This document shows positions 3,970 through 56,089 of a stretch of DNA of 64,000 nt, one piece after another (the stretch's first letter is position 1; each line of letters begins with the position of its first letter). Source of the DNA: Flammula alnicola (Eukaryota; Basidiomycota; Agaricomycetes; Agaricales; Strophariaceae); the NCBI GenBank assembly GCA_015499995.1, contig JADNRV010000007.1:62001-126000 (forward strand), written 5' to 3'. The translations under genes and the position numbers were made by a program. Under the pieces are notes generated by a model. That model saw only the letters and a program-made list of their open reading frames with translations. It was not told where the DNA came from and did not search any database.

Positions 3970-6643
3970 TCAGTAGCCGAAGTGCACATATGGAACCCAT
4001 GTCAAGAATGCAGTATCACTCTCTCCAAGGCTCTCTCGAACCTTCCTCGTAGCGTAATCCAAGGCATAGGCTGCCTGAGTACTGTCCAATCCCTCCAACC
4101 CCTTCTCCCTAAGCAAATATTGATAGAACTCCGTTGCAAACTCTGGTCCATGCATATCGGAAATGCTCCACATCGTACCAACCACACCACGATAACCAGC
4201 AGCAAGCATACCAGCAGGGAAATGGACAACTTCCTCCGATAATTTGAGGTCTCCTTTGCTTGTCTGGCATGTTGGAAGGAAAGCCAAGTCCAGTTTCGGG
4301 ATTTGCTGCTTCATGATCTCGAGCAGCTCCAAGCGGCCATCGTGGAGACAGAGGCCGCTCTCGAGAGGCTGGTGGACATCTTGCACTCCATGGCAAGCAA
4401 AGTGAACCCAACTACGGGACTTGATCTCTGCCTTCACTTTCTCTCTAGTCGCCTTGTCGTCCTCCAACAGCAGCGTGTCGACAGCGGTTCCTTTCATCAA
4501 CTCTTGAAGGGCATGCACCTCTTTTCGGGCCGAGGGTATTGTGGAAAGACCCGGCGTGTTCGGTTGGCTGACAAGGACGAGGCTGGTACATCTGGAAGAC
4601 GTGGATGATGCAAGGAATTTATCGTTAAGGGAGCGGACAGTTGGTGTATATGACGAAACGACGAAATCGGAAACGCATGATCCTGGCTGGTATGCTGAAC
4701 CATATATCCCAGCTGCGTGGAGTGGAAGAAATGCGAGTGGGCCGGTCGGGCACCACCATATACGGCTGCGATTTGAAGGGTCGGAATGGTACTGAGAGTG
4801 CGAAAGATCAGTACAAACAAGTCGTCAATTAGCAACACCTTACAGAGTATGCTAGTGCTTCGAGAACTGGTTGGACAACTTTGCACCAAAGTTCTCTTAG
4901 AACAAACGACATGGATGGCGGATCACGGAAATAACGCCGAACAGCACGATCTCCGTCCTTCACCTCCCGTTGCTTGAGTAGGTCGAATTGAAGGGCCTTC
5001 TGCAGTTGCTCTGCTTGCACGAGACTGAAGTTCTCTAGAGGGATATGCAGAGGCTCATCGATCCCAGCTATAACAGCCAAGGCATCACATTGGGTGTTGT
5101 GAATGTTGAAGATGATAACTGGACCATCAGAGGGCAATGAGGAGAGGAGGTCGGTGGCCTTAGGTGGCTGAAGAAAGTTGTGGAAACCCGGAAGACCCCG
5201 AATCTCTTTGAGAAGTTGCCTATACTCTGTAGCGTGGAGGGCATGTGTAGTATGTGAAGAAGGAATGGACAAGGCTGAACGAGTTGCGTAGGACTCTAAG
5301 GCACTCGCGACCTTTATGAAGTGATCAGCCAAGGATGGACTTATTATGCAGAGATTGTCAATTGGTGTACGGAGTTGGTTGAGCTGATTCCACACCAAGC
5401 AGCGGCCTCGCTCCAGCCATTCGAGCGCGAGATCAGCTTTATCACAATGGAGAGCAGTAGACACAGCAGATCCTACGAGATCATAATGGCCATGAAGGTT
5501 AGCACGATGGCGATGGATCGGTTGTTCTGACCCAGCAACCTCCGAGAGCAGACTAATGGCAAGAGCAAAGTCGGTCAAGCAGCGAGAGTCATCATGAACT
5601 GAGGATAGCACGGCCGCAAGCCTGGCAGACTCCAAACGAATGGATGGGGTGCCATTTGCCTCAGCAGCCCGACGATATGAAGCAATGCTGTTCTGGACAT
5701 CAGGCAAATGATGGGTGCATTGGAAGCGGAGCTGGTAAGATCTGCCAAGATTTTTGAAGCAACCCAGAAGGTTGGCATTGCCGGGAGGAGTGGATTCAAC
5801 AGCACTCTGGTGGTAGGATATGGCATGGTCAATATCCTGGAGGTCGCCGGTGCGTTCAAAGCGACGAGTGTACAAATTTCCAAGGTTGCTGAAGTGACTC
5901 GGAAGGTTGGCGTGGCTGGAAGGAGTGGATTTTACAGCACTCTGGTGGTGGGATATGGCATGCTCAACATCCTGGAGGTCGCCTGTGCATTCATAGCGAC
6001 GAGTGTATGAACTTGCAAGGTTGCTGATGCGACTCGGAAGGTCAGGATGGCTGGAAGGAGTGGATTCAACAGCACTTTGGTGGTGGGATATGGCACAGTC
6101 AATATCCTGAAGGTTGCCGGTGCATTCAAAGCGACGTGTGTATGAATTTCCAAGGTTGTTGAACCAACTTGGAAGATCAGGATGGCCAGAAGCAGTGCAT
6201 TTGACAGCACTCTGGTGGTGGGATATGGCATGGTCAATATCCTGGAGGTCGCCGGTGCGTTCAAAGCGGCGTGCATATGAACTTCCAAGGCTGTTGAACC
6301 AACTTGGAAGGTCAACGTGGCCGGAAGGAGTGGATTCGACAGCACTCTGGTGGTAGGATATGGCACGGTCAATATCCTGGAGGTCGCCAGTGTGTTCGAA
6401 GCGACATAAGTACGAATTTCCAAGGTTGCTGAAGCAAGTCGGAAGGTTGGCGTGGCCAGAAGAAGTAGATTCAACAGCACTCTGGTGATGGGATATGGCA
6501 CGGTCAATATCATGGAGGTTGCCAGTGTGTTCGAAGCGACGAGAATAAGAGCTGCAAATGTAGTTTTAGACGACTGCCAGCCAAACACACAAATGTCAGA
6601 AACTCACCTAGAACTTGAAGATGGTGGGTCCATACCCATCTAG
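3970..6643 (-). CDS. TPR-repeat protein with C-terminal CHAT peptidase domain
   Basis: Large cytosolic-type protein of a family expanded in Agaricomycetes. The N-terminal half is an array of about six 45-residue TPR-like units (consensus RRFERTGDLQDIDHAISYHQ) plus a degenerate seventh. A helical linker follows, then a CHAT domain: WWCPTGPLAFLPLHAAG, DFVVSSYTPTV, SWVHFACHG with the presumed catalytic His, and DLAFLPTCQTSKGD with the presumed catalytic Cys, ending in TAFLTWVPYVHFGY. An intron at about 4796-4841 separates the linker (ending EALAYS) from the exon carrying the tryptophan motif. The first intron lies just after a 32-nt first exon that starts at 6643; an alternative Met is 6 nt downstream. 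CHAT belongs to the caspase/separase peptidase clan; the target is unknown. More upstream exons are possible. Confidence 0.85.
5740..6555 (-). repeat. 135-bp tandem repeats coding TPR units
   Basis: Six head-to-tail units of 135 bp each encode one 45-residue TPR-like motif. The units are very similar at DNA level, for example the recurring block around 5941, 6076, 6209, 6344 and 6479. This implies recent expansion or gene conversion inside the TPR-CHAT gene. The reading frame stays open through all units. Confidence 0.85.
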
Positions 6644-14836: not shown

Positions 14837-15319
14837 GTAAGTACCCGTTTGATTACGACCGGAGATGTATTCAATGTGCGGAAACCGATATGCTACAATG
14901 GGTCGTAAAAGGCGTAAAAAAAGGCGTGAATAGAAAAAATGCAGGTGGTGTGTATTAGAAGAACAAGGAAAGAGGAAATCCAAAAAATGAGGATGAATGT
15001 AAATGCCGATGATGCTGATGAATGAGAAAAGAAAAAAAATGCCTGTATCATGCATGTATCATCGTGAGGGTAATAAAAAAAAGCGTTAAAGCCAACGATG
15101 CATCTTGTGTCTAAAAGTACATACATCTGCCGTGCAGAAGAGAATACTCTAAATGGCGACCATTCTAAAATGTTGTTCGTAGCGTACAGTCTTCGAGGCG
15201 TCAAGTCCAACAGAGAAAGAACCCTATGGCCTCTGACCAAGAAAAAGAAGAAAAAATCCAGAGTTTCCATGCACACACAAGTCCATGTCCCGCGAACGGG
15301 ACGAGAAAGGAGGTTTGTC
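14837..15319. other. Junction flank of duplication arm 1
   Basis: Sequence beyond the end of arm 1 and 3' of the proline-rich gene. At about 14860-14908 (minus strand) it carries a short dispersed repeat, containing CATTGTAGCATAT, that also occurs at 44571-44620 and about 44925-44960. No gene recognised. Confidence 0.5.
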
Positions 15320-16772
15320 CTATCCAACGCTCCGCCGCAGATACTCCTTCCTACTCCGGCCCGTACTGAGATCGTACACCCTCCGATGCGCCCTATACGG
15401 GAGGACATACGGCCCGCCAGGAAGAGGCTGCGACGACGACGCCTGCACAGGCACAGGCGCATACGGAGACGGGCTCGTCACAGCAGAATGCAACTGCATG
15501 CTGCTGGAGTATTGCGGTTGAGGTTGAGAAGGAGGAGGGGGTATGCCGATGCCGGTGAAGTAATTCGACGCGTGCAGAGGGGGCGTCGACATGGCGGAGT
15601 GCGTCGCAGGCGAGCCGCCGCTGCCGTAGGTCGACCATGCTGGTGGGCCGGGTCCTATTCCTAGTCCTATAGGGGGCGGAGGGGCGAACGCAGAGCTGGG
15701 TCCTGCCGTTGAAGCAGACGCTGCTGTGTTGGAGAACACGCTGAAGGTCGATGCATTTGCTGGTGCGGAACGAGGCGGCTGGAGCAGGGACGCGTCCTGT
15801 GTCTGCAAGGGTTGTGTATGTGGGGTTTTGGTTGGTTGGTTGGTTGGTTGTTTTTGGATTGCGGATTGCGACGATTAAAGAACGGCCGATGGGATGAGGT
15901 TGAAGATGCGACCAAGCAAGCAGAAGATGCACAAAAAGAGGCAAATTTCAGCAAGGGCGGAGGTTACAGGTACTAGGAGAAGAGAGAGAGAAAGAGTAAG
16001 AATAGATTACAAACACGACATAATTTAAAAGGGGGAAACGTGAAAGGTTCGCCCATATGGGATGCTTGGAAAGTTATCGGAAGAAGTTACTCACCATGAC
16101 GGGTACCTGGGCTGCCCTGTGGGGGTGATGCATCATGAAATATCCCGGGTGGCCAGCGCTGCCGCCCATGACCGGTGGGTATCCGTACTGATACCCTGAG
16201 GAAACGGGGGGCGACGCCATGTTGTAGTACGCCGCCGATTGGTGCGAGCGCGAGCGCAATTGCGCCGAATGCGACCTGTGGCGGTGATGTGCTGACGGCC
16301 TATGATGCGGGGCAGTCATGTACGTCGGGGGCATCATCATCGGCGGAGGGGACACCATCGGCGGGGCCATATGATGGAACGCGCCTGGGGCGGCGCCGCC
16401 GTGCTGGGGTGCGAACATCATGCCTGGGCTTGCGAGAGGTAGAGGCATGGGGCCCGGACCATCGCCGTACTCCTCTGAGGACTCGGAGTCGGGCGGGGGT
16501 GGGGCATGCACGAAGAGCTGGCGCGGCTGCTGCTGCTGCCAGTGGTGGCCGCCATTTGCATACTGCTGACGCAGAGGCGAAGTCGGGGGCGAGCGCTTCG
16601 GTTTCGAATACGAGTCGTACGATGGTTGCCGAGGGCGCATTGCTGCTGAGGGACCAACGGCATGCTCGAACTGGGGCCTGTGCTGCTCGGTGGTGTCGAC
16701 CCAGTTCGCGATGCGGTTCTGAGTGGCGAGATGCCGCTCATAGGCCTCGGGGGAATAATCGTATTCGGTCAT
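15320..16772 (-). CDS. Proline/histidine-rich low-complexity protein
   Basis: Function not recognised. The first exon (16772 to about 16096) starts MTEYDYSPEAYERHLATQNR and continues as a disordered Pro/Met/His/Gln-rich chain with segments such as PPMVSPPPMMMPPTYMTAPH and HHRPSAHHRHRSHSAQLRSR. An intron of about 295 nt (donor after VPVM, acceptor before TQDASLLQPP) leads to a second Pro/Ser-rich exon, which includes AFAPPPPIGLGIGPGPPAW and ends SRKEYLRRSVG. There is no signal peptide or membrane segment. Composition suggests an intrinsically disordered regulatory or RNA-related protein, but that is speculation. Confidence 0.65.
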
Positions 16773-17413
16773 ATCGTCAGGGAGAGAAGGGGGGAATAAA
16801 AAAAGAAAAGGAGAAAAGGAAAAGAGAACGGGCTCGAGGAGCTGTTGACTCTGTGGGAGAAAGGAATGAGAGACGGCTGGATTTATACTCGACTGCACCC
16901 CCCGGTTCCCTAACGACCGGTGTGGCTGAGGCTCGCAGCTATGGGGACGATAGAGTCACAGATGAACAAACGCAGCGGGGCAGTGCCCTGTACCAGATCG
17001 GGTTTCTCCGCCCCTTGGTCCGGATCAACAAGTTGAACAACAACACGCACACAACACGCAGCAATGACGGCCAACCCGCAAAAAACAAAGGCCGTTGTCA
17101 TGTCCGACTACTCCCCGTACACCGCCTCACTCATCTTACGAACAAGACACCCGATAGTTCCGTCCAATCCGAGTCTTGAATTAAAAGAAGAGCCATGCGA
17201 CTATCAAATGACGACGTTCGACGCCAATCTACAACAATACACTAACTAAAGGGGCCAGCGTCCTCCAGCACGCGCAGTAACATACTAATAACACACTCCA
17301 CGAGTCCATCCATCCATTAAACAGCACGCACTCAAAAACCTATGCTATGAAGTAACGATGAGCTCAGAGCATTGCGCAGCGATGACGCAGTAAAAAAGCT
17401 ATTCACCAACACC
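16773..17413. other. Promoter of proline-rich gene and 3' flank of peptide gene
   Basis: No supported gene. The part near 16773-16900 is likely the 5' leader of the proline-rich gene, with purine-rich AAAAGAAAAGG runs on the plus strand. Confidence 0.45.
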
Positions 17414-18268
17414 TCAGTAGGGCACGATCTGGCCATTGGGGGACTTCACTGGGTCTTCCGCTGGGATTTGGCGGCGCTTGTAGGGCTCGATCGTGCCGTT
17501 GGGCGACTTTACGGGGTCCTCGGCGGGGATCTGACGACGACGGTAGGGCTCAATCGTGCCGTTAGGGGCCTTGACCGGATCCTCAGCGGGAATCTGGCGG
17601 CGCTTGTAGGGCTCGATCGTGCCGTTAGGGGACTTGACTGGGTCTTCTGCAGGAATCTGACGACGACGGTAAGGCTCAATGGTGCCGTTAGGGGCCTTTA
17701 CTGGGTCCTCGGCAGGGATCTGGCGGCGCTTGTAGGGCACGATCTGGCCGTTAGGGGACTTGACTGGGTCCTCAGCGGGAATTTGTCGACGCCTGTAAGG
17801 TATGATCTGGCCGTTGGGTGCCTTCACCGGGTCCTCAGCTGGGATTTGGCGGCGCTTGTAGGGTATGATCTGGCCGTTTGGCGACTTCACTGGGTCCTCG
17901 GCGGGAATCTGACGACGACGGTAGGGCACAATTTGACCGTTGGGTGCCTTCACTGGGTCCTCAGCAGGGATCTGACGACGCCTATAGGGTACAATCTGGC
18001 CATTGGGCGCCTTGACCGGGTCCTCGGCAGGGATCTGACGTTTGACGTAGACCGGGATGGTCTCCAGAGGTTCGGGCGAGCGCTGGGCTACGCTCCTCAT
18101 AGCGACCTGATGTATCATGATTTATGTCAGGTGATGGGAACTTGTTGTAAAAATATGATTGGATGGGTAAAGCTGACTGACCTTCATAGGCATGGGTATC
18201 GAAGCTGCCATTGCCTGGCCGGCGAGGGCGAACGTCAGGAAGGCAATGAGGGCTGTTCTGGAAAACAT
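17414..18268 (-). CDS. Secreted multi-copy peptide precursor (Kex2-type repeats)
   Basis: Two exons: 18268-18182 and 18106-17414, joined across a 75-nt GT-AG intron. Exon 1 codes a signal peptide, MFSRTALIAFLTFALAGQAM followed by AASIPMP. After a short pro-segment (SVAQRSPEPLETIPVYVKR) come ten head-to-tail 18-residue units of the form QIPAEDPVKAPNGQIVPY. Units are separated by RRR or KRR; the last ends directly at the stop. The total is about 259 residues. The basic triplets fit cleavage by a Kex2-like Golgi protease with trimming of the C-terminal basic residues, releasing 18-mers with N-terminal Gln. Position 10 is Ala or Ser, and positions 14-16 are QIV, QII or TIE, giving six distinct peptides. 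This architecture defines fungal Kex2-processed repeat proteins; I do not recognise the peptide. No peptide-modifying enzyme gene lies nearby. Confidence 0.88.
17417..18037 (-). repeat. Ten 63-bp coding tandem repeats
   Basis: Each unit codes 18 residues plus three basic residues (the last lacks them). Ala-type units are always followed by RRR. Ser-type units are followed by KRR, except the final unit. Units 2-9 alternate Ala, Ser, so the real amplification unit appears to be a 126-bp dimer. Units 6-9 carry TIE and units 1-5 and 10 carry QIV or QII. Confidence 0.92.
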
Positions 18269-18513
18269 GGTGGAAAAGCGTGCAAAAGTGAACGAAGGGA
18301 AAGAAGTGCTCCTGTGCGTGGGACGACGACGAAATGAAAGTGAAAAGAGTTGTAAAAAGGCTCAAGTCGGATAGGGCGCGCCTGCGGCCGGGGCTGAAAC
18401 GAAGAACTGGGTTGAAGAAAAAGTGGTCAGAAAAACCTAAGGGAGAGGAGGCAGAGACTTACAGGAAGGAAAAAGAAACGAAGAAGGGGGAAGAAAGAGA
18501 AGGAAAGGTGTTG

Positions 18514-18528
18514 GGGTATTTAAATAAA
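18514..18528 (-). promoter_or_regulatory. TATA-like element upstream of peptide gene
   Basis: An AT-rich TATTTAAAT box about 250 bp upstream of the ATG at 18268, consistent with a regulated TATA promoter and a leader of about 200 nt. Suggestive only. Confidence 0.3.
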
Positions 18529-18949
18529 AGACTCGGGCATGTTGGTCGACACACGACGACAGCGACACCAATCTGATATGATGGTCGCGACCACTCCATT
18601 TTTAGATCACACGTGATGCATTAGATTTTTATTTTTAGATGGTCCAGTAATATTCTTTAATTTCTTACCTCTTTTTCTATCCAATCCTGGCTCTGCTAAC
18701 AATGTTAGTGGGGACGGGCATTCACGGTTCGTCTGATGGCGCTTAGTCACATAGCACAGCCACCCAAGAACGCGCCGATCGCCACTTGCCTCTCTCATTC
18801 ATGTCTACATTGCTGTATCCACTCCCATTTGCTCCGAATACCACAAGAAATAAAGTATTAATGTATCTGCTACAAGATAAGTACATATTAGTTAGGTATT
18901 GCAGTGAAATATAGCAAAATTTACAAGATAATTAGTAGGTTTATAAATT

Positions 18950-19165
18950 TCAAGAGTAATCATCCATTTCGGCGTCGTCTTCAGCCTCCCAGTCATCACT
19001 TACTGGGATTGGCATATCAAAAGTAAGTCCCGGAATGCTTTCACCATGTTCCAAAACAAATGCCTGATAGCGAATAAATTCAGCTTCCAAAGCAGCCTGG
19101 AGATCGGCCTTCTTTTTAAATCGGCTCTTGGCTGGGACATCTGGTAAGCCTCGAAAGCGTAGCAC
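18950..19165 (-). CDS. Short SAP-like open frame, probably transposon-associated
   Basis: A 71-codon frame reading FRGLPDVPAKSRFKKKADLQ near its start and ending in an acidic tail (DDWEAEDDAEMDDYS). The arrangement (short basic motif, GLP, KADLQAAL) resembles a SAP DNA-binding helix pair. It abuts repeats, and the related sequence AAGCCTCGAAAG recurs at 20105-20117. There is no intron or upstream exon I can place, so it may be a fragment. Confidence 0.3.
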   Translation of the reverse strand: MLRFRGLPDVPAKSRFKKKADLQAALEAEFIRYQAFVLEHGESIPGLTFDMPIPVSDDWEAEDDAEMDDYS

Positions 19166-19235
19166 GGTCAGTCACGGTGTGACATACGTGTCTGCGTGAC
19201 TTCCACCTGCATCCAGAGTGACATTCGTAGTTGGC

Positions 19236-19919
19236 GACTTTTAGCCCCAAGCACGTGATTCTTTCCGTTATGTAACGCTCTTGAGCTGGTCAAATGCACG
19301 AACTGGTTTGTTTTACGGTGTGTGGCACGGTGGAACACAGAGAGGACTTGTAAATTCAAAGTCTCTCCGTTTATCTAGAGCATCTCTGACAAGTCTTTAT
19401 GCATTTATTATTCTTCATGCTTTAAAATAGGTGGAATTAAAAATATTATCATTATCTACATTGAAAACATAGTCTAATCATCATCTCTCTAATGCAAAGA
19501 GAGGACAAAACCACTACTAATCATATAACTACCTCCATAACAGTGGCATGGTTAAAATGGTGATGACTACCCCCACCAGACCATAAATCATATATATCTA
19601 CCTCAGAAGATGTATGGACATCATAACACCTCACAAAGAAGACGTACATTGATGGCCACTGATGGAGCAATGGGGGCCTATGGACTGTGGCGAGAGTGAG
19701 AGGGGCAAAGAGGTCAGGAGAATACATATAATGCTGTGAGGGGAGCTTGAACAGTGTGGTGGGCTTGGGAGGCTTGCAAACACAACGACGAGGAAGGTGA
19801 CGGTGGTAAGAGGAAAGATGAGCGGTGCCACCAATCATGCGGACGTGAACTGAGTTGGGAGCGTTCAATTTCCAGCATTACATAATGGTTTTAACATCAC
19901 GTGCATGGGGCTAAAAGTC
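19236..19919. mobile_element. Candidate non-autonomous TIR element (MITE-like)
   Basis: The ends 19236-19280 and 19874-19919 are inverted copies of each other: GACTTTTAGCCCCA, then GCACGTGAT and, after a variable gap, TTATGTAA. Length is about 680 bp. No transposase and no clear target-site duplication seen. Confidence 0.5.
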
Positions 19920-20006
19920 AAAAACTGACATTCGTCCGTCCCGCCTACAAAAGCGGCATCTCTCCGGATTCCTTCCATATTTTGCAGGCGCATATTTGAA
20001 ATGTAG

Positions 20007-20119
20007 ATCTTTCGAGGCTTGGCAAGCATTTTCATCCAAATTAAATTGGAGGATAATTTTAAAATTTATCTTTTGCTCATCATCTGCAGCATTCTTATAC
20101 TTGCCAAGCCTCGAAAGAT
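20007..20119. repeat. Perfect 20-bp inverted repeat (hairpin)
   Basis: ATCTTTCGAGGCTTGGCAAG at 20007-20026 is exactly inverted at 20100-20119, with a 73-bp AT-rich spacer. This could form a stem-loop or be the ends of a very small foldback element. Confidence 0.75.
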
Positions 20120-20287
20120 TATTATATGTTGATATATTTTATGCAAAGACATCACGAGCCCGGCCCAAAATAGGGCATACAGGCGGTACGGCGTTTTTGA
20201 ATTGGGTTTTGGCGGTACGGTCTTAGAAGTAAGCATGTACAAACAAAATGAGTGCTGAGCAGGTCATGCCCGTCCCCACTAACAACC

Positions 20288-22807
20288 ATGTCGGACCCTC
20301 GCTTCGCCAGACTAAAATCCGACCCTCGCTTCCGCCGCCCCAAAACCAAAAACACAAAAGTCGTCATCGACGAGCGCTTCAAAAGTGTTTTCAAGCAGGA
20401 CAAGAAGAAAAACGGCATGTTGATGCCAACCATCTCTCTCATTCGTGTTTGCTGATTGGGCGCAATGTTATTATTACAGCGGGCCGCAAGGTCGACAAGT
20501 ACGGGCGTCCCATCTCTGATACGCAGGAACAAGACAACCTACGACGGTATTACCGTTTGGAAAACGATGATGCCGAAAAGGACGACGACGTCGTCCCGCG
20601 AAAGCCTGATCTTGCGCGTGGAGAGGTCCTCCTCGAGTCATCGGACGAGGAAGACGAAGAAAACGCACTAGACTCTGATGAATCGGACGACGGAGGCTTC
20701 GTCACCCTCGGCGGCGATTCCTGCAGGCCCATAGCCGTGCCCAACGAGGAGGACGAGGACGCCGAGGTCGATTTGGACGAAGACGATGACGAGGACAACT
20801 TTGCCGACCTCGATGCGCAGGCAGCGAGTTATGCCAAAACCCACCGAGAGGAAGGAGACGACCAGGAGGCGGCAGAGCGCACGTCCCGGCTGGCTATCGT
20901 CAACCTCGACTGGGACCACGTCCGCGCGCACCACTTGTACAAGATCTGCGGGTCCCTCGTGTCTCCTACCGCGCCTGTCGTGCGTGCGTCCTCGTCTGCG
21001 ATAGTGGAACCCGCACCTGACCGGCGGCGAACCGGAAGAGGCCAGCCGGGCGCCCAAGTAAACGTCGCTCGAGGGAAGGTGCTCAGCGTGCGTGTATACC
21101 CGAGCGACTTTGGCAAGCAGCGGATGGCGCGAGAGGAGAGGGAAGGTCCGCCGCCGGAGATATTCAAGAAGAAAGATTTGGACGTCGACGATATCGACGA
21201 AAAGAACGTGTATGAGGTTGGAGGCGAGGACGAGTACGATGAGGATAAGTTGCGGAAATACCAGCTGGAACGATTGAGGTGGGTTTCTTTTCTTTTGTGC
21301 GTCGACGATAATTTCTTATTGAATATATCAGGTATTACTATGCGATCGTGACGTGCGATACGGTGGACGCAGCATCACATATATACAACGAGCTGGAGGG
21401 CACAGAGCTTGAACGCTCTGCGAACGTTTTTGATATGAGCTTCGTTCCTGAGGATATGTCCTTTGAAAACGAGCCACGGTAAGTCATCCATCCTTCAATA
21501 CATTTTCCCCCCAATTTCCTCATTCCATTCATAGAGACGAAGCTACCGATGAGGTAAACACACAATACAAAGCTGTCGAATTCGTTACCGACGTAAGTCT
21601 CTCCTATCTCTACAAAATTCTTAAATCCCTAAATAACCCATCACCCCAGGCTCTACGACACTCAAAAGTCAAACTGACATGGGACGACGACGACCCGGAG
21701 CGAAACCAAGTTACGCGACGTGCGCTGACACGGAAGGAAATCGAGGAGTCCGATTTCCGGGCGTACATCGCCAACACGTCCTCCGAGTCCGAGTCGGACG
21801 GTGCGGAAGGCAAGGGCGGCGCTCCGAAGCAACAGAAGAAGAAGGACAAGAAGGACAAGAAAGCGTCGAGGGATAAGTTGCGAGCGCTCCTGCTGGGCGG
21901 CAACGACGATGCCATGCCGGAAGGATGGGGAGACGATGCTGGGGGCGACGACGATGTGGATATGGAGATCACGTTCACGCCGGGCCTCAGTAAGAAGGAC
22001 GACAAGGACGAGACGACGCTGGAGAGGTATCAGCGGAAGATGAGGGAGAAGAGGAAGAAGAGGAAGGAGGAGGTCAAGGATAAGGATACGGATGAGCGTG
22101 AGGTTGGTGGTAAGAAAGAGACGAAGTTGGAAGACGACTTTTTCGAGGCGGGTAGCGACGACGAGCAGGGTCAAGCAGAACAGGAAAAGCCTGCTAAAGG
22201 CAAATCGAAGAAAGATAAGAAGCAGAAAAGCAAGAAGAGTAACCAGGATGGTGGGGATGATGATGAAGATAAACCCGCCGCTCGCGCAGAGGCGACTGCG
22301 GAGGAACTGGCACTGCTCGTCGCGTCTGACAACCCCAACGCGGAGCCGAAACACTTCAACCTCAAGTCCGTCATCAAAGCCGAGAAGCAGAAGAAGAGAA
22401 GAAAGGGGCGGAAAGGCAAGACGACGGAGGACGACAACGAGGCCCAGGAGGACTTTGTCATGGACGTCAAGGACGAGCGGTTCAAGGTCTTGTTCGAGGA
22501 TCATCAGTTCGCTATCGATCCTACCAATCCTCAGTACGTGTGTTTTCTGAAGGAAGTTCGCGTGGGTGCTGACGATATTTTCTTCTTTTCTTTTAGTTTC
22601 AAGAAGACGAAAGCCATGAGCGCGTTGCTTGACGAGCGTCAGAAACGCCAACGTGAACTGCGCGACGAGCACGTGGAAGGTGCTCCTAGCAGGCCGAAGA
22701 CCACAGGAGAGACTGGTCCGAAGAGTCTGCAGAGTTTGGTGGAGAGCGTGAAGAGAAAGAGTACGAATATAGAGCCATCGGGTCAGGGTAAACGTAGGAA
22801 GCTATAG
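20288..22807 (+). CDS. ESF1: Pre-rRNA processing protein ESF1
   Basis: Nucleolar protein needed for 18S rRNA maturation. It starts MSDPRFARLKSDPRFRRPK. After the first intron come KVDKYGRPISD, long acidic tracts, and the family core YYYAIVTCDTVDAASHIYNE followed by FVPEDMSFENEPR. The C-terminal NUC153-type block reads DERFKVLFEDHQFAIDPTNP. The tail is Lys-rich and nucleolar in character. The first intron (20415-20479) needs a GC donor (GCATGT) to keep the frame; further introns lie near 21280-21330, 21480-21540, 21595-21650 and 22535-22598. The long open frames on the opposite strand are composition shadows. Confidence 0.92.
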
Positions 22808-22960
22808 TAGAACCGACATCCGTACTATTCCTCATATTGTTCGATTTGCACGCTCCCATGAAGCATATTCTGGTTCCTCGGTAAAACAAACATCGCTATT
22901 AATTTGAGCGAGCACTCCATTATACATTGTGCGGTAACTATTGATATGGTGGCCGAGATA

Positions 22961-23897
22961 TTATGTGACCTTAGCGTTAGAGAAGTCGAGCTCGGGATGA
23001 GCAGCTTGGAATTTCTTGAGAGCCTGGAAGAGAAGACTCGGCATTAGTAACCCAAAAAGCAAACGAGGACCAGAATAAATTTCGCACCTCCATCTTCTTC
23101 AGCTCGTCAGACGTGGGCTTGCCCATTTGCTAGATAATGGGATCAATAAAGGAAGTAGGAGACTGGCTTTGTCAACTCACTTTCTGCTGGTTGTCAAACT
23201 GCGGTGGCGATAAACGGTTAGTACAGAATTACTAGAAAGTTCGGGGCGTCATACCATCATCTTCTCAACCATTCCTCTGTTAGGAGAAAGAGAAATGGGT
23301 TAGGCGTAATGTTAATCGATGAGTTTTGTGATGATACACTCACCGCGTCTCATTATCCAGATCGCTCAATTTGCTGTTCGCAGGCTCGATTTTCTTCGTG
23401 TCGATCTTGGGATGGTGTGTCAGGACGTTCTCCCACCAAGTTTGATCATTAATCTTTTCCAGATGGATGAGAACAGCTTTGTTATCCTCTAAAACACAAG
23501 TTGTTAGATCGAGTCAATAATTACATATAGGAGAATATATATATACTCACGGACGGTCCAAGTGCTATCTTCGACCTTGATCTCTTTGCATAATTCTCCA
23601 GCCATGATAGGCTCAGCACCCTTCAGTCCGACGCTGAGTTTCTTCTTCTGAATGACAACATGGAGGTCTTTGCCGCGAGTACCTTGTGGCACAGGTACGG
23701 TAACGTCGACCTCACCTAGTTCCTGGGTCCAGGTATACGGCAGCGCTAAAAGATCAAAAAGATGATGAGACAAGTAGTCCCCGTTACGGCAGGTGCATAC
23801 CAGCCTGCTCTTGTTCTTCATGGGCCTTGGCCTCCGTATCGAAAGCTTCGCGCTCCTCCGGGGAGAGCTTGTCGTAATCCTCTTGTGTAGTTGACAT
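22961..23897 (-). CDS. nudC: Nuclear movement protein NudC
   Basis: CS-domain (p23-like) co-chaperone that stabilises the dynein regulator Lis1/NudF and is needed for nuclear migration. It starts [20 protein letters not shown]. The CS domain begins [20 protein letters not shown] and continues [16 protein letters not shown], with [17 protein letters not shown] and [20 protein letters not shown] toward the end, then LDFSNAKVT. At least five short introns split it, several around very small exons at 23080-23290. It is divergent from the SUMO ligase gene. Confidence 0.92.
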
Positions 23898-24125
23898 GGT
23901 AAGGGAGAGATGAGTAAACTCGGGAGAAAAATGAATTTTGGATCATTCGGGAACGATTTGACATCTATAAATTAAGATACCGCTGACTAAGCTAACATCA
24001 GCGAAAGCGCGTCCGGTTATTTGACCATGTTTGCATTCGAGGGCTTACCTTGTACATTGGCTTTGCGGGCACATTGCGAACTCACTCCCTTCTCTGAGGG
24101 CAACAACACCGTAGGCTGGACTCCA
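23898..24125. promoter_or_regulatory. Shared bidirectional promoter, NUDC and SUMO ligase
   Basis: Only 228 bp separate the two start codons, so both promoters must lie here. No specific factor site recognised. Confidence 0.5.
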
Positions 24126-26666
24126 ATGGCTAGTACAGAAGCATGGCTCGAGTTTGAAGTATGTTTTCTTCCATTCTCCCCCTTTTATATTCCCTAATAG
24201 ATGACTTTGATAACAGCAAGTTCGCCACAATATCAAGAATAACACCGTGGACAGGTTGAAACAGATTTTATCCGGCATGAACGAAGAATGTGGCACGCAC
24301 TTCTCGAAAGGCGGCAAAAAGCAAGATATCATCGACAGAATTGTCAGCGTCCTCGATGCTTGGCGGGCTAGTAACTTTGAAGACAAGTGGATGAAAGCAA
24401 AGGCAATCGTCTATCAAGTGCGGACAACTGGGATGTGAGTGGTGTTTTTGATTGGCATTAGAGCCCGCGACGTCATTTATGCGCTTTGGTCATTCGATTC
24501 TCATGTCTCTGTTCTCTTTCAGCTATACGCCTAGCCGTTCACTACCACTATCCGGCGTTCTTCCAACTCCTCCCAGCTCTCACGCGACGTACGATCCTCC
24601 GAAGGCTAGCCATTATCTCTCCACACTTTCTGGCGGGAGTAGCATAAGTCATTACGACCCGTACGCGCCTCCCCGACGACCTGCTGCTGTTTCTGCACCC
24701 GGTCCTTCAACCTCCGGTGGCCAAAAAGTTGCAGGTACTTTGGACTTGCTTGTTTTTTTATATCTTCCTTGACCTTATCCTGCAGGAATTCGCTTTAGGG
24801 ATTCTCCATTTTTCACAATCGACCAGGCTGTAACTTCGGTGGTAGAATGTCCAGGTTTGTCAACGGCGTTTATGCAGCATTCGCACGTGCTAAGCTTTGG
24901 CGCTCAGAATCAACTAGTGCGACCGATCGCCGTCAACAAACGCTGTCTTTCACGTTGAATAATGACCAGATGATGAAGATGAAGGCTACTGGGTACTTGT
25001 CATCTTTTGCACGCTGTCTCCCTTGGTTCTTATCCGTTTTTGTCGATCAGATCGAAGTATCAGCTTCGGTTGTTCTGCACTTCGTCCATTTTCTATGCAG
25101 GGGTTAACTCGTTCAGATCGAACGCTGTCCCGTGTCCAATCGAGTTTCCTCCGACCTGCGAGGTTCGCGTTAACAACACGCAGATAACAGCGAGTCTGAA
25201 AGGGTTGAAGAAGAAGCCCGGCACAGCTCCTCCGCCGGATATTGGCAAGTATTCTCGGATTACAGGGTCCAACAGGGTGGAAATGGTGTACGTGAACAGC
25301 CAACAGCCCGTGCAATCGAAGGTTCGCAGCGTTTGCTTTCGGTAATAAGCGTATTGCTGAATAATTATCGTCAGAAGTACTATATGATTATCATGTTGGT
25401 CGAGACGACCACAATCGACGCATTGGTTGCCAACTTGAAATCGCAGCACCATCAAAGTGCACAAGACATCCGGCACAAAAGTACGTTTGTTCATCAGAAT
25501 TTTGGCTTGGTTAACGCATGTTCGCAGTGATCCAAGCCATGACGGAAGATGACGACATTGTAGCAGGGCCGCAGAAAATGTCATTAAAATGTCCAGTCAG
25601 TAGCCATGCACCTGATGGATGATCGTGAAGTACTGAGCAGCATTACAGCTCACTTTTGTGCGAATTACGACCCCATGTCGGTCGTCGAAGTGTGTTCACC
25701 CACAATGTTTTGACGCCACCTCGTGGTTCACCATGATGGAGCAAACGACGACATGGCTCTGCCCTGTGTGCGAACGAACTCTGGACCATAAGGATTTGAT
25801 CTTGGACGGGTAGGTTCAACTTTTTATGTCGTGATTTGTGGGTCTAATTCCTACATTCCAGTTATTTCGATGAGATCCTGCAGCAAACCCCAGAAAGTGT
25901 GGAGGATGTGATAGTGGAGGCTGATGGACAATGGCATACATCTGATAACAAGTATGGGTCAGCAGAGTGGAGAGCTGCTCACCCTCCAGCGGTTAAGCCC
26001 TCGCCATCCAAGAAACCTCAAGCGCCCTCTCAGAGCACATCCTGTCCACCCCCAAACGGAAATGGTTCAGCCCAAGCCAACGGCAAGGGCAAGGCTTCCA
26101 ATATCGAAGTCTTGGTGCTCGACGATTCTGACTCGGATGACGATGAAGGTCGTGTGAAACGAGAGCTATCCCCGTCATATGCATCTTCCGCCAACCACTC
26201 CTTTGAAGGGTCGCTGCCTCGATCGACGCAGACGCGCTCGCAAGCCAACAACGTAATCGACTTGACGTTGGATGACTCGGACGACGACGATGAGCCGATT
26301 GTGTCGAACTCGCATGGGAAGCGGAAGGCAACAGATGCCGAACTTGATAACTCAGTCGCGGATCATGATCAGATATGGAAAAAAGGAAGAATGGATCCGT
26401 CTCGTATCTTGCCCGTCCCCAGGGTGTCGTCGGGAGCCATCAATGGCGCTGCTCCGGTATTGCATGCGTCGTCGATAAACAACCACCCTCCATCATCCCC
26501 TCGCTATTCGTCGTCATTTTCGAATAACACTCTGCCTCCTCCTCCTGCGACGTATTCTAATTTTGTTGCAAGAAATGGGTCGAGCAATCCGTCTTTGCAG
26601 CTGCCGCCATTAACGAATTCGGCGTATCTTTCTCGTCCGTCGCAAAACTCGCGATGGCCAGCGTAG
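24126..26666 (+). CDS. SUMO E3 ligase, SIZ/PIAS family
   Basis: Nuclear E3 that promotes SUMO transfer from Ubc9. Starts MASTEAWLEFE. A SAP-like segment follows (VDRLKQILSGMNEECGTHFS, then GGKKQDIIDRIVSVLDAW). A PINIT-type region includes PCPIEFPPTCEVRVNNTQIT and ITGSNRVEMVYVNSQ. The SP-RING has CPLTFVRITTPCRSSKCVHP then QCFDATSWF and TTTWLCPVCERTLDHKDL. The tail carries two likely SUMO-interaction motifs, IEVLVLDDSDSDDDE and NVIDLTLDDSDDDDE. Many short introns split the 5' half; the last large exon begins near 25861. The gene could start upstream of the chosen ATG. Confidence 0.9.
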
Positions 26667-27237
26667 CCGTTTCTATTCGTAATAGTATTATCGATAACTA
26701 TACAGACTCTCAGATACTCGTAATATATTTACAGTGTACCGTTCTAATGTGGGGAAATTTGTCATATATTTTTATTAAAGCACATTTGCTGTTGCTCCAC
26801 CCACTGAAGAACATATTCGTTTTTCATCACAAAATTTGGAATATGAGTTTCAGGTATACAGTACATGCCATGCAAGAATTCAGAAAAATTGAGCTCTACG
26901 GGAGGACGCCTCTTGCTCGAGCAACCAGGGCGGACTCAATTTTGTTGCTTCAAGGCTGAGCAAAATTTCTGGTCGTCCGACGTCCATGACCATCTAATGC
27001 GGGGAATGTGTCATATCCTTTTATTTTACCGTCGATCGGGGTATACAATGGCGCACCAGTGGCGCACTGCCAGCAGAGATCACGAGGATCGGCAATCGTG
27101 CCGGGTAGGGAGGGAGCGGAGTTGAAAGTGATCCGGTGCTTCCCGAAAAGCCTTTTGACGCGAAGTTTTTCGCAAATCTTGTGCTCAACCTTTCACCTTC
27201 ACCACCTCCACTCCTCCTCTCCGGTTCCTTCTAAAAA
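26667..27237. other. Intergenic region before the ADP/ATP carrier
   Basis: About 570 bp: 3' flank of the SUMO ligase and promoter of the carrier. The last about 60 bp before the ATG are strongly pyrimidine-rich (CACCTCCACTCCTCCTCT), typical of highly expressed fungal genes. Confidence 0.5.
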
Positions 27238-28560
27238 ATGGCCGAAGTTAAGAAGGGCAAGTCGCCCCAGGAATTCGCTAGTCAGTGTATCTCTTGCTCT
27301 GTTATCCTTCTATTCCTCACCGTCCTTGATGTCCAGTCGATTTCTTGATGGGTGGTGTCTCCGCTGTAAGCATCTTTGGCGCTTATCTCTTCTTCCACTT
27401 CTCACTCGGTTTCTTCTAGGCTGTCGCGAAGACATCCGCTGCTCCCATTGAGCGTATCAAGCTCCTGGTCCAGAACCAGGATGAGATGGTCGGTTTAGTC
27501 GCCCTTTCGTTGCTATTTACGCTGACACGTCACGCGCTCAGATCAAGCAAGGTCGTCTCGCCACCCCCTACAAGGGCGTCGGCGACGCTTTCTCCCGCAC
27601 ATACAGGGAGGAGGGTATGCTCTCACTCTGGCGAGGAAACACCGCCAACGTCATCCGTTACTTCCCCACCCAGGCTCTTAACTTTGCCTTCAGTCCGTTT
27701 TTCCATCCTTTCCCACCCGTTATCAAGCGCTAATACCCTTTCCAGAGGACTACTTCAAGTCCCTGTTCGGTTTCAAGAAGAACGAAGGTTACTGGAAATG
27801 GTTTGCTGGCAATGTTGCTTCTGGTGGTGCTGCTGGTGCCTCGTCCCTTCTCTTCGTTTACTCTCTCGATTACGCCCGTACCCGTCTCGCCAACGATGCC
27901 AAATCCTCAAAGGGTGGAGGAGCCCGTCAATTCAACGGTCTCGTCGACGTTTACAAGAAGACCCTCGCTTCCGATGGTATTGCCGGTCTCTACCGTGGAT
28001 TCGTCCCCTCAGTCGTTGGTATCATCGTCTACCGTGGTCTCTACTTCGGTGTCTACGATTCGCTCAGTGAGTGTTCCGTGTTTTTGTTTATTTTAATCAT
28101 TTTAAAACATGTATTTGCAGAGCCCGTCCTCCTCGTCGGTGCCCTTGAGGGATCGTTCTTGGCTTCATTCGGTCTCGGTTGGGGTGTTACCGTCGGTGCT
28201 GGTCTTGCTTCCTACCCTCTTGATACCATTCGGTATGCTATATCTTGCAACAGTGTATGCTTTTTGCACAAACTGACCCACTCCATAGTCGTCGCATGAT
28301 GATGACTTCAGGATCCGGTGTTAACTACAAGTCCATGTTCGATGCTGGTTCGCAGATCATTGCCAAGGAAGGTATCAAGTCCCTCTTCAAGGGTGCTGGT
28401 GCCAACATTCTCCGTGGTGTTGCTGGTGCTGGTGTCTTGTCTCTCTACGACAAGCTCCAGGAGGTCATGTTCGGCAAGGTCTACTCCGGTGGTAAGCATA
28501 CGTCGTCCGTATCATTCCGAGACCCATGTGCTTACTCTGTTCTTCCCAGGATCCGGCTAA
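27238..28560 (+). CDS. AAC: Mitochondrial ADP/ATP carrier
   Basis: Inner-membrane antiporter exchanging ADP for ATP. Three mitochondrial-carrier repeats are visible, with signatures [28 protein letters not shown] and YPLDTIRRRMMM. The last holds the RRRMMM hallmark of ADP/ATP carriers. Further matches are [20 protein letters not shown] and [18 protein letters not shown]. The short start [14 protein letters not shown] and the end GKVYSGGSG fit fungal AAC length (about 310 residues). At least seven introns; the last splits a glycine codon before the stop at 28558. Confidence 0.96.
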
Positions 28561-28889
28561 AAAAGCTGTCATCTAGCAGTTGGCATAAGCTGGCGGTGAT
28601 AGAAGACTACGCATTATATACATTTATTACGCATAGACTCTCTTTTTCTCTATATTTTTCTTGCATTGGGTATGGCCATACTACACTATACCCTCGTAAC
28701 GGCCCATTATCAGTAGAGCAGATCAAATACTTAATGTGCTTCGCTGGATTCGCGTGCAATATTTCATCGACAATCTCTCAACAGATGTAAGTGGAGTACT
28801 TGCGTCGATCGGCCCTAGACATGTCCAGACCGACTCGTCGCTCTCATAAAGTGCTGAAATACGTACTGTCTCCTTGAACTCCGCATTCC

Positions 28890-31800
28890 ATGCCTTTCTT
28901 TCGAGGTCTGAGGCCTCCTCAAGCATTTGTACGGAGGAATCTTTCTTCTTTTGCACAACTTCGTTCGATTAGGGCGAGAGATGCCCCGCTAGACATACAC
29001 CCAGAAGTGGAGGACGCTCTCGCGCACAACAAACCAGTCGTAGCACTTGAAACAGCCCTTGTCACTCATGGGCTTCCCTTCCCGTCCAGCCTCGAGGTTC
29101 CGCTGGCTCTCGAAGAGATTGTTAGGTCCACTGGGTCTATTCCTGCTACCATCGGCATCATTGGAGGAAGAGTGAAAGTGGGATTGGAGCGGGATGAGCT
29201 GGAGAGGCTTGCGGATTATAAGAAGGTCAAGCCGGCCAAGGTGTCGCGGAGAGACATCGCTGCTGCTATCGCACTGGAGGCGGATGGAGGTGCGTTTCGT
29301 TACTGCTCGCATATATACAGTATGACTGACTTTGGACTTGGAAATGCGTTTAGGAACGACGTGCAGTGCTACTATGATCTTTGCGGCTTTGGCTGGAATC
29401 AAGGTGCGCCCGTTGGACCTCGAGTCCGTTTGTTAAGATTGCCTTGCCTCGATTTTGACCATTCATATTTTATGATATACAGGTATTCGCGACGGGCGGG
29501 TGAGCATTAACTTACCTGCGTAAATTGAATGAAAGTTCCTGACGTCTATTACTTAGACTCGGAGGCGTGCACCGTGGTGGCGAAACCTGTATGCCTTCTC
29601 TTGCCTCTCAATACAACGCGTTGTCGCTCATAACTGACGCCGCGCTTAACCAGCCATGGACGTATCTGCCGACCTCCATGAACTCACTCGTTGCCCTGTG
29701 GGACTCGTATCGTCCGGGGTCAAGTCCATCTTAGACATCAAGAGGTTGGTTTGCTATACGTCATGATTCGCGGTTTCAATTCTGAAGACTCTAATTCATC
29801 TTAGAACTCTTGAATATCTTGTGAGCCCAGTTCAAGATGTGCTCTTGGTTGGAATTTTCTTAGTGATATTTAGGAAACCCTTGGAGTGCCGGTGCTCTCG
29901 TATGGCGATTCTCGAGAATTCCCAGCGTTCTTCTCTCGTCATAGTGGACATACTGCAAGTCGTTTGGAAACTTGATTATATTCCTAAACCTGATTTTATC
30001 TAATCTCGCAGGTTCCTTGGAATGTGGACAACCCGGCTTCAGCAGCCCAGGTTCTGTGTAAGTCCTCGCAGATTATTTATATACCCGCAGCGCGCGCAGT
30101 CCATTTATCGACGACGTTTACTTGAATGTAGACACGCAATGGCAACTGGGAATGCAAAACGGGGCATTGATCGCGGTCCCTATTCCCGAAGAACACGAAG
30201 CCGTAGGAGAGCTGATCCAGAAATTCGTCAACCAAGCCGTCCTCGAGTCGGAGGAGAACGGGATAAGCAAGAGCGGCAAAGATGCGACGCCCTGGCTCCT
30301 CAATAGGATCGCAGAGCTGAGCGGTGGCCTGTCCTTGTCTTCGAATATTGCGCTGCTTAAAAACACGGCTCTGATCGGTAAGCAAGAGACATTTGCATGG
30401 TCGTTCGTAACTTGATGTATTTTTTTTCTCTAGGTGGCCAAATCGCCGTTCACTACCAGAAGTTGATAAATGAGTCGGTCGGTAAATCTCCAAATTTAAA
30501 TCTCACATTTATGCTGAAGTTTTCTCTTCTCTGTCTCTAGTTCCATGATTCTGGAGATCACTTTTTGTCGCACGCACTTTCTCATGGAAAGAAACCAACG
30601 CCTTCACCTCTTGGTCACTTCCCTGATCATAAGAATGCGGACCTCCATCAGGTTAGCACTTGTCCTGCCTTTAACTCAGTGCCTCCAATTCGTCTGAAAC
30701 GTGTGTTAGCCTTCAGCTTCCGTCGTCGTCATTGGTTCAGCAGCAGTAGATATTACTGCACAGGAATTGCCCAACACCAATGCTGCTCTTGCCGTACATT
30801 CCACCGCTCCAGGGCACATCAGAGTGTCCTTGGGTGGCGTCGGTCGCAACATCGCAGAAGCCTCTCATCGAGTGATGCAGGCCAAGTACCCCGCGCTTTC
30901 TTCGATCCTCCTCGCACCTGTCGGTTATGATGGGTTGGGCCACATCCTCGTCGACGAGATGACGCAGTTTGGAATGCGGACGGACGGCCTCGTGAGAACC
31001 GATAAGCAGACTGCGGTGTGCAATATGGTTCTTGATAGCAACGGGACTTTGGTCGGAGGCGTGGCAGATATGTCCATCATGGAATCAGTGAATCTCGACG
31101 AAGTAAGTTGTTCTCCTGGGTTCAATTTAACGTAAATCTCATTGGTCTGGCTAGATTATCCCTCATCTGCAAAAGCATTCGCCCAGTATTGTCGCCTTGG
31201 ACGGAAATCTGCCTACTACAACCCTCGAGGCCCTTGTGCATCATTGCAATCAACGTGCTATCCCAGGTATGCATATACTTCCAACATATCTACTTCGAGG
31301 CAGAAACTAACTTTTTGCAGTTCTTTTGTAGGTCATATATCTATCAAATTTCCGATAGCATGAATCGATACTAACCAGGGTCTTAGTGAACCGACATCAA
31401 CGATCAAATCCACCACTATCTTGCCTGCCATTTTGACTGCACTCAATGCACAAGAATCGAATGACGAGGGAAAAGCTTCGGATCAGGCTCCAATTGCATA
31501 CTGCACTCCTAATCTCCTTGAACTAACACAAATCTACGAAACAGCACAATCGGACCTATTTGACCTAATGAACCACCCTTCTTGGTGGTATGTCATCAAT
31601 GACCTTAACCTAGGATCAGCCTTCCGCATGGATCTCGAGCAACTCGCACGAAGGCCAGTATCCGACCACAGTGGAGTAAAAGGAGATTTGAACTTCCTCC
31701 TCGAAGAAGGCATAGCTCAGAAGGCCGTCCACCTCCTCCCGTTCTTCCAGCATCTCGTCATCAAATGTGGGGAACAGGGCGTGCTTATCGCAATGCGCAT

Positions 31801-32122
31801 AGCTGCTGAAGACGCCGCTGCCTCTGGATGGGCAAAGCTACGGAGCAATCCGCACCAACGATATATTGTTGCGCACGGAAACCATAAAGAGATCGTCGTC
31901 CTCCAGCACATCCCTTCCTTGCCAGTCGAATCGCTGGTTAACGTCACGGGTGCAGGGGATTCTTTCGTTGGCGCATTGTTGGCAGCTATAGCCCACAACC
32001 GCAACGTGCTGTATCATCCGACGAGCCTTCATGATGCCGTCTTAACCGCGCAGAAGGCGGCCACCTTGAGTTTACAGAGCCATTATGCCGTTTCGCCCCT
32101 GCTCTCTTCATTGGGCAGGTAA
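28890..32122 (+). CDS. Pseudouridine-5'-phosphate glycosidase / PfkB kinase fusion
   Basis: Bifunctional enzyme for pseudouridine catabolism. The N-terminal PsuG-like half splits pseudouridine-5'-phosphate to uracil and ribose-5-phosphate: VVALETALVTHGLPFPSSLE, IGIIGGRVKVGLER, the VSRRDIAAAIA segment, VSSGVKSILDIKRTLEYLET and PWLLNRIAELSGG then SSNIALLKNTALIG. The C-terminal PfkB half phosphorylates pseudouridine: SVVVIGSAAVDITA, VSLGGVGRNIAEASHR and the anion-hole motif VNVTGAGDSFVGALLA. The Arg-rich N-terminus (MPFFRGLRPPQAFVRRNLSS) suggests mitochondrial import. About ten introns. The stop lies only 28 bp from the convergent helicase stop. Confidence 0.92.
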
Positions 32123-32149
32123 TTGTCCAGTTTCCAGTTGTCGAGGAGT

Positions 32150-34696: not shown

Positions 34697-34898
34697 GGAA
34701 AAGAGGTGATGGACGTCGTCGAGCAAGTTGGTGTGGGCCGTGCGGTCGAAATTGTTCGTGCACGTGGGAGAAGGTCAGTAGCCATCATCACATTTTATGT
34801 AATCTTCAGCGTTCAACGTTCAGTGTTCAACGTTCAGCGCTCAGCGCTCAGCGCCAACCTGTTCTTTTTCCACGTACTTAGGCGCCCTAGCAGCTCCG

Positions 34899-55529: not shown

Positions 55530-56089
55530 GATGCAATGAGGGGGAAAAGAGAAGGCAGAATCATGTCAGTGACCATCCTTTTATACTTGTTCCAGGAATA
55601 CTTAGAAGGAAGGCCAAAAGCAGCCGCTGAGCCTCCTCGTTGTCCTTCACGTGATGTAGTTCATTGTATTCCAGCTTCAAGAGCTTGAACAGCGAACACC
55701 TCATTGCGAAGCTCTGGACCCCGACTTCATCCAAAATTGAAATATATATGCATCTTTGTAAGTAAACTCCTAATTAACCTTGGGCTGCGGCATTCCGATC
55801 AAAAGATAGCAGTACATACTGACTGCATGCTAATTTTAATTTTGTTCGAGAAATGCAAGAAATATTTTTGAGATCAAGATATAATACGAGTCCTAAGGTC
55901 TCGATGAAGATAGATCAAACGTAGCTGCAGAGTGGTTCGTCAGGCTCAGACGCGTGGCACCAAAAATGTTCCTGGCATCCTTTATATCAAGTCGGTAGCA
56001 CAGCAGAAGGAAGGCGGAACTGAAGGAAGGGGTGTCCTTATATGCTTCAAGATTCTGCCTTTTACGTTGCGCAGATCAAGCGATTGATG
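55530..56089. other. Intergenic region with F-box 3' flank duplicated elsewhere
   Basis: 3' flank of the F-box gene. The stretch 55665-55900 has a diverged counterpart at 60540-60790 (shared CTTCATCCAAAATTGAAAT and AAAAGATA blocks). 55900-56089 has one at 62960-63177. In the second locus these two halves are about 2.2 kb apart. Confidence 0.7.

Follow-up and report, generated by a model that had tools for sequence, protein, structure and literature searches.

What might a mushroom-forming fungus release from a gene that spells nearly the same 18-residue peptide ten times over, and for whom might that peptide be meant? The question is raised by a locus of Flammula alnicola at positions 17414–18268 of the window, the whole stretch of 64,000 nucleotides analysed here. 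The initial annotation had read it as a secreted precursor cut at Kex2-type sites, and possibly as an undescribed peptide signal or surface peptide. Judged by its sequence, the precursor belongs to KEP 497993, a family of agaricomycete precursors that has already been described. We put the probability that both the membership and the processing of the Flammula precursor are correctly assigned at roughly 0.85.

The precursor and its repeat array

Two predicted exons on the minus strand encode a product of 259 residues (Table 1); the coordinates of the gene had been given exactly before, without a strand. The open reading frame joins the hydrophobic leader MFSRTALIAFLTFALAGQAMA only after removal of the intron, whose splicing in Flammula alnicola is predicted. 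Residues 1–21 would form a signal peptide, cut after AMA. The best 12-residue stretch in hydropathy covers residues 6–17 (2.3), the best value beyond residue 30 being 0.18, and residues 2–21 form a helix in the AlphaFold2 model; both predictions agree with the signal peptide claimed earlier. The remaining layout described at the outset, a pro-segment ending in VYVKR, ten units, RRR or KRR linkers and a last unit that runs to the stop, can be read directly from the translation.

Table 1. Positions in the window of the parts of the precursor gene and of its two neighbours.
Feature	Positions	Strand	Details
Exon 1	18182..18268	-	Start codon, leader, first 8 pro-segment residues
Predicted intron	18107..18181	-	75 bases, phase 0, GTCAGT...CATCAG; same splice motifs in second allele
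Exon 2	17414..18106	-	Remaining pro-segment, ten units, stop codon TGA
Pro-segment, exon-2 part	18038..18106	-	VAMRSVAQRSPEPLETIPVYVKR; C-terminal KR is the first Kex2-type site
Array	17417..18037	-	Ten 18-residue units, 63-base period
Unit 1	17984..18037	-	QIPAEDPVKAPNGQIVPY
Unit 10	17417..17470	-	QIPAEDPVKSPNGQIVPY; stop directly after, so no basic tail to trim
Downstream neighbour	16074..16772	-	232-aa frame beginning MTEYDYSPEAYERH; no Pfam match
Upstream neighbour, ESF1-type	20248..22807	+	RRM_ESF1 and NUC153 domains, two reading frames

The units follow the pattern QIPAEDPVK(A/S)PNG(QIV/QII/TIE)PY and comprise six distinct 18-mers: A-QIV, S-QIV, A-TIE and S-TIE occur twice each, A-QII and S-QII once each. 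Dibasic sites stand on the N-terminal side of all ten units and on the C-terminal side of nine, unit 10 ending in Tyr followed by TGA. The linkers are RRR in five cases (after units 1, 2, 4, 6 and 8) and KRR in four (after units 3, 5, 7 and 9). Each A-type unit is followed by RRR and each S-type unit by KRR, except unit 10, an S-type unit followed by the stop. From this alternation, the array appears to be built in part of a 126-base double unit. Tandem Repeats Finder scores it at 583, 721 and 714 for periods of 63, 126 and 189, respectively.

Over the 45 pairs of units, mean pS is 0.63 and mean pN 0.065. Codon differences between units amount to 0.442, near saturation when set beside a mean of 0.472 for synonymous shuffles (range 0.421–0.499). 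The high pS, the low pN and a codon choice close to random synonymous shuffling indicate that the units are old and constrained to one peptide. Calculated [M+2H]2+ values for the pyroglutamyl forms are 959.9991 (A-QIV), 961.4807 (A-TIE), 967.0069 (A-QII), 967.9965 (S-QIV), 969.4782 (S-TIE) and 975.0044 (S-QII), and those for the units with open Gln lie 8.513 higher.

Pfam assigned an S4 domain (PF13275) to the precursor at 31.4 bits, above the cut-off of 24.6, yet no single stretch passes; DUF2188, DUF7330, DUF1648 and other labels on its relatives all fall below their cut-offs. Since these labels are short and differ between family members, they were taken as repeat artefacts.

Relatives and the KEP 497993 family

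A homology search with the precursor, which had been proposed as a check, yielded at least 12 homologues at E<=1 among the best 8000 candidates scored. An alignment of 12 sequences, from which P0011 was omitted, brought this to at least 39 at E<=0.01 among the best 7994 candidates scored, for a family set of 40 sequences that includes the window's own precursor. Named sources are Amanita, Termitomyces, Hymenopellis, Macrolepiota, Lentinula, Tricholoma, Agrocybe, Mycena, Russula and Lactarius; many of the remaining relatives are unnamed metagenome proteins. Wherever an organism is named, the relative comes from a fungus; we take these fungi to be mainly Agaricales and Russulales, and all of them agaricomycetes except for the ascomycete P0040 (Naviculisporaceae). 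The latter carries a similar motif within a longer core, IPAEVPVRTDATGNIIPF, in place of the gapless core, its sequence hinting that the family may extend past the basidiomycetes.

A gapless core of 17 columns is present in 39 of the 40 sequences, with 146 cores in total and none in P0040. Weighted per protein, its best-kept columns are Gly13 (0.97), Pro3 (0.95), Glu5 (0.94), Ile2 (0.93) and Lys9 (0.90), and the last position is Tyr18 at 0.89 or Phe at 0.09. In 21 cores, no [KR]R precedes within 16 residues. Of the other 125, 96 have Gln immediately behind the closest preceding [KR]R, ten of these being the window's own; as the family sequences are related, such counts represent non-independent events. 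Where 2–13 residues separate the site from the Ile of the core, Gln comes first in 35 of 57, versus 4.6% Gln overall. Counted by protein, it is the commonest first residue in 24 of 39 and not in 15, several of which are ties involving cores without a basic pair. The protein ends exactly at the last residue of the core in 17 of 39 cases and elsewhere in 22. Four Lentinula proteins (P0010, P0011, P0015 and P0016) end in ...DIVPY with a core one residue longer, and some of the proteins not ending at the core appear to be fragments or questionable gene models. A conserved Gln start together with a conserved C-terminal end is what would be expected if the mature product were pGlu...PY.

The link to KEP 497993 comes from the Coprinopsis cinerea peptide QIPAELPTKSINGNIEPY. 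Left out when the family core profile was built, it scores 42.9 bits on that profile, and none of 20,000 shuffles exceeds 13.0. By eye, 14 of its 18 positions are the same as in the S-TIE unit. Both precursors are of the secreted type with Kex2-type sites, and both share an 18-residue core, QIPAExPxKSxNGxIEPY, that ends in Tyr. The Flammula precursor consists of short repeats flanked by dibasic sites, as is characteristic of KEPs (KEX2-processed repeat proteins), a class defined in PMC6339444. In addition to a core related to QIPAELPTKSINGNIEPY, it shares with the KEP 497993 family its occurrence as one locus, here with two alleles, and its agaricomycete distribution. What sets it apart is a regular array of ten units in which the tribasic linkers come immediately behind the Tyr.

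According to the passages of the C. cinerea study on which we draw (Vogt et al. 2022, PMC9769878), mass spectrometry identified pyro-QIPAELPTKSINGNIEPY from KEP 497993 mainly in premature caps, where a form extended by K was likewise primarily found; when produced in Pichia, the peptide was also found with an extra KV. A second peptide, pyro-QVPVDEPA, occurred in culture fluid and mycelium and has, by eye, no Flammula counterpart. The KEP 497993 peptides were gone in a deletion strain, and the study counted 13 or more homologues among other agaricomycetes (PMC9769878). The peptide can thus no longer be called undescribed, its family having been published in 2022 (PMC9769878).

A survey by Umemura in 2020 defined, in the portions cited here, a KEP type #7 (G-1/P-2) found in 62 strains of 49 genera at 1.03 per strain (PMC7329392). 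These genera include Coprinopsis, Termitomyces, Pleurotus, Galerina and Gymnopilus, the core is Tyr-rich, and DUF3328 was found within 15 genes in 0 of 64 cases (PMC7329392). The Flammula family agrees with type #7 in genera, copy number, lack of DUF3328 and the chance labels DUF2188 and DUF1648, whereas the other Pfam labels reported there for type #7 are mostly unseen in it. We infer that it is probably this type, the most widespread in that survey. Among the papers listed in literature searches with peptide strings, only PMC9769878 matched the longer strings, the others containing QIPAE alone, and searches on KEPs and on Flammula gave no further title on the peptide within their coverage, which takes in few subscription journals.

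Alleles and neighbours of the locus

The precursor was found at two places in the genome, on the contig of the window (C667) and on C679, and a distant relative used as the query gave the same result. Most likely these are two alleles of one locus, with C679 as the other haplotype, since the contigs share 95.9% identity over their largest matching stretch (14.6 kb) and 93.5% over the next largest (3.9 kb). The remaining matching pieces of the two contigs range from 87.5 to 98.8% identity when unit-against-unit matches are excluded, and a window frame at 53502–55565, which has further paralogues, is found again on C679 at 99%. Between the alleles, the precursor shows a pS of 0.088 and a pN of 0.013. 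At unit 6, the second allele has A-QIV with SRR instead of A-TIE with RRR, 10 of 54 bases being different, and this replacement is likely a conversion event; the second allele also has S-QII at unit 4 and Asp-Ala for Asp-Pro at unit 9.

The haplotypes differ in arrangement as well. A 20-kb segment bearing the precursor (window 14863–34818) is inverted at C679:178897–197238, although an assembly error is possible. The breakpoints lie at inverted repeats, at ~12.4–14.8 kb and 36.3–39.3 kb of the window with related pieces from 34.5 kb, and these repeats carry DUF4246 genes. The other haplotype also lacks ~1.6 kb (window ~18690–20278) of the interval that separates the precursor from the ESF1-type gene, including the first ESF1-type codons as read here.

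The frame beginning MTEYDYSPEAYERH lies 641 bases downstream of the precursor on the same strand. It matches two Flammula alnicola proteins at 100% and 97%. The precursor, in contrast, has no Flammula entry among the matches listed, which were clustered at 90%, and seems, unlike its neighbour, to be absent from the protein database. At E<=0.01, the neighbour has 112 matching proteins, this genome's two alleles among them, and those with a named organism are presumably all from agaricomycete fungi. Gene order in other species was examined through fused gene models. In the Amanita thiersii model P0003, a homologous precursor runs straight into a relative of the MTEYDYSPEAYERH neighbour; this is probably a gene-finder fusion of two genes, from which we conclude that precursor and neighbour are adjacent in that species. 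P0003 is the only one of the 112 proteins that also bears the precursor core under a strict pattern, and this single case suggests that the MTEYDYSPEAYERH gene is probably a conserved neighbour of the precursor.

The ESF1-type gene on the other side, which we take to be a housekeeping gene, is outside the peptide system. Among 20 scanned window frames (of 45 stop-to-stop frames of >=180 aa), none has a UstYa, P450 or methyltransferase domain, and nothing in the frames scanned suggests a metabolite cluster around the precursor. At 3970–6565 of the window, on the minus strand, TPR repeats (135-base period, 5.8 copies) are followed by a CHAT domain.

Predicted processing and possible roles of the peptides

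In the mechanism that we propose, the predicted leader would send the precursor into secretion. By analogy with the C. cinerea homologue, Kex2 would likely separate the ten units at their basic linkers, Kex1 would likely trim the basic tails, and the N-terminal Gln would cyclise to pyroglutamate, so that six linear peptides are released, likely as an extracellular signal. Cleavage, trimming and cyclisation in Flammula, although inferred from the gene, have good support in homology and in the constancy of the peptide ends. The release of six 18-mers whose Gln becomes pyroglutamate, as first suggested from the letters, thus appears likely. Their ends as given here are predicted from the genes, and the linear pyroglutamyl form would be that of the C. 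cinerea homologue, for which mass spectrometry has shown it (PMC9769878).

Genes for a kexin and a glutaminyl cyclase are present in the genome. Matches to the kexin domain P_proprotein occur at six places on four contigs, and the catalytic exon beside the best of them matches Kexin 2id4 with an E value of 2e-82. An M28 match on C35 has a counterpart on C385, and one C35 exon matches glutaminyl cyclase 4mhn (E 1.4e-22). For S10 carboxypeptidases, 43 exon matches were obtained with PF00450, which alone cannot separate Kex1 from others. Several points count against our explanation: if a tribasic linker were cut as RR|R, the Arg left at the N-terminus would block cyclisation, and the 15 proteins in which Gln is not the commonest first residue, like the 22 that do not end exactly at the core, fit it less well.

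Once released, the peptides may act as a signal read by a receptor, a reading that we favour tentatively, and at less than even odds, because the core and both of its ends are conserved across distant fungi. We know of no receptor for a peptide of this family, and the signal envisaged in the initial annotation stands as one of several readings. The KEP 497993 deletion strain is described as having no phenotype, with normal growth, mycelium and fruiting bodies in pure culture (PMC9769878), which argues against an essential signal.

Next in rank is a role towards other organisms, in which the same processing would supply peptides that act on competitors, bacteria, animals or plants; we consider it rather unlikely. 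Defence peptides tend towards fast change, whereas the core is common to fungi of several orders, and the peptide is, by eye, weakly acidic and without Cys, which also speaks against such a role. A deletion without effect on growth or fruiting in pure culture is, on the other hand, what it would lead one to expect, and the authors of the C. cinerea study lean towards a function aimed at the biotic environment, even though the synthetic KEP peptides inhibited none of the five bacterial strains reported in the sections cited (PMC9769878).

It is distinctly unlikely that the peptides are, after the same processing, structural ones that assemble on the cell wall like those of Rep1. The many copies in each precursor would suit this purpose, and Ustilago maydis Rep1 provides a precedent in a basidiomycete, its repeats being likewise cut by Kex2 (PMC9769878, PMC6339444). 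The Rep1 peptides, as described there, are longer (37 residues) and control hyphal wall properties (PMC6339444). Against such a role, the Flammula unit is, by eye, rich in Pro and charged residues, and mycelium and fruiting bodies of the C. cinerea deletion strain are reported as normal (PMC9769878).

That the protein stays uncut, as a secreted repetitive component of wall or matrix, is very improbable. Purifying selection on the units would be seen in a structural repeat too, but a basic linker stands at every junction, Gln is common after it, the stop comes at the end of the core, and the C. cinerea homologue is, by the account available, cut in vivo (PMC9769878). Moreover, the array has no predicted fold (mean AlphaFold2 pLDDT of 47.5 with the 12-sequence alignment), as would be expected of a precursor meant for cutting.

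Even less credible is a cyclic peptide of the dikaritin type (ustiloxin, phomopsin, asperipin), made by UstYa (DUF3328) oxidases. Dikaritin precursors have the same layout, all ten units finish in Tyr, and the genome has 23 exon-level UstYa matches, but all of them lie on contigs other than C667 and C679, which bears out the earlier remark that no such oxidase is nearby, and the C. cinerea peptide was identified, in the part of the study cited, as linear with pyroglutamate (PMC9769878). Four UstYa exon matches each are grouped at C767:76399–83957, C852:132995–141594 and C177:42997–51805. These are possibly dikaritin-type clusters, and the C852 and C177 groups look like two haplotypes of one cluster.

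An alpha-type mating pheromone is just as hard to credit, despite the leader, pro-segment and short repeated peptides cut by Kex2 and Kex1 that ascomycete alpha-factor precursors share with this one, and despite the string QIPAE, which the S. cerevisiae alpha-factor leader likewise contains in the excerpts cited (PMC10203085, PMC10233622). The basic sites are not followed by the XA/XP dipeptides of STE13 processing, every unit starting with QI, and MF_alpha_N was not matched in the 10 family members scanned of 40. The genome has STE3-type receptors (43 matches, 42 above cut-off); a search for STE2 gave 0 matches, with control genomes likewise silent. Homology to the S. cerevisiae leader was rejected, as its score on the gapless family profile was reached by 3671 of 5000 of its own shuffles, leaving no detectable relation. 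A basidiomycete CAAX mating pheromone, already dismissed in the initial annotation, is excluded by a precursor that ends in IVPY and has no Cys anywhere.

The Flammula alnicola precursor is a clean and highly regular addition to a family of mushroom peptides with a product already detected by mass spectrometry, and the exact calculated masses of its six peptides allow a direct search. To this family our analysis adds a set of 40 sequences, one probably conserved neighbour gene and counts of the conservation of the peptide ends. A bolder proposal, which we hold to be unlikely, is that the family represents the most common peptide hormone in mushroom-forming fungi: ancient, near single-copy and linear, with pGlu at the front and Pro-Tyr at the back, with its neighbour gene retained in distantly related Agaricales, and sensed by a dedicated receptor in cap development. 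That the ends are fixed, the core conserved and every unit under selection speaks for specific recognition, and a search for a receptor would therefore be worthwhile.
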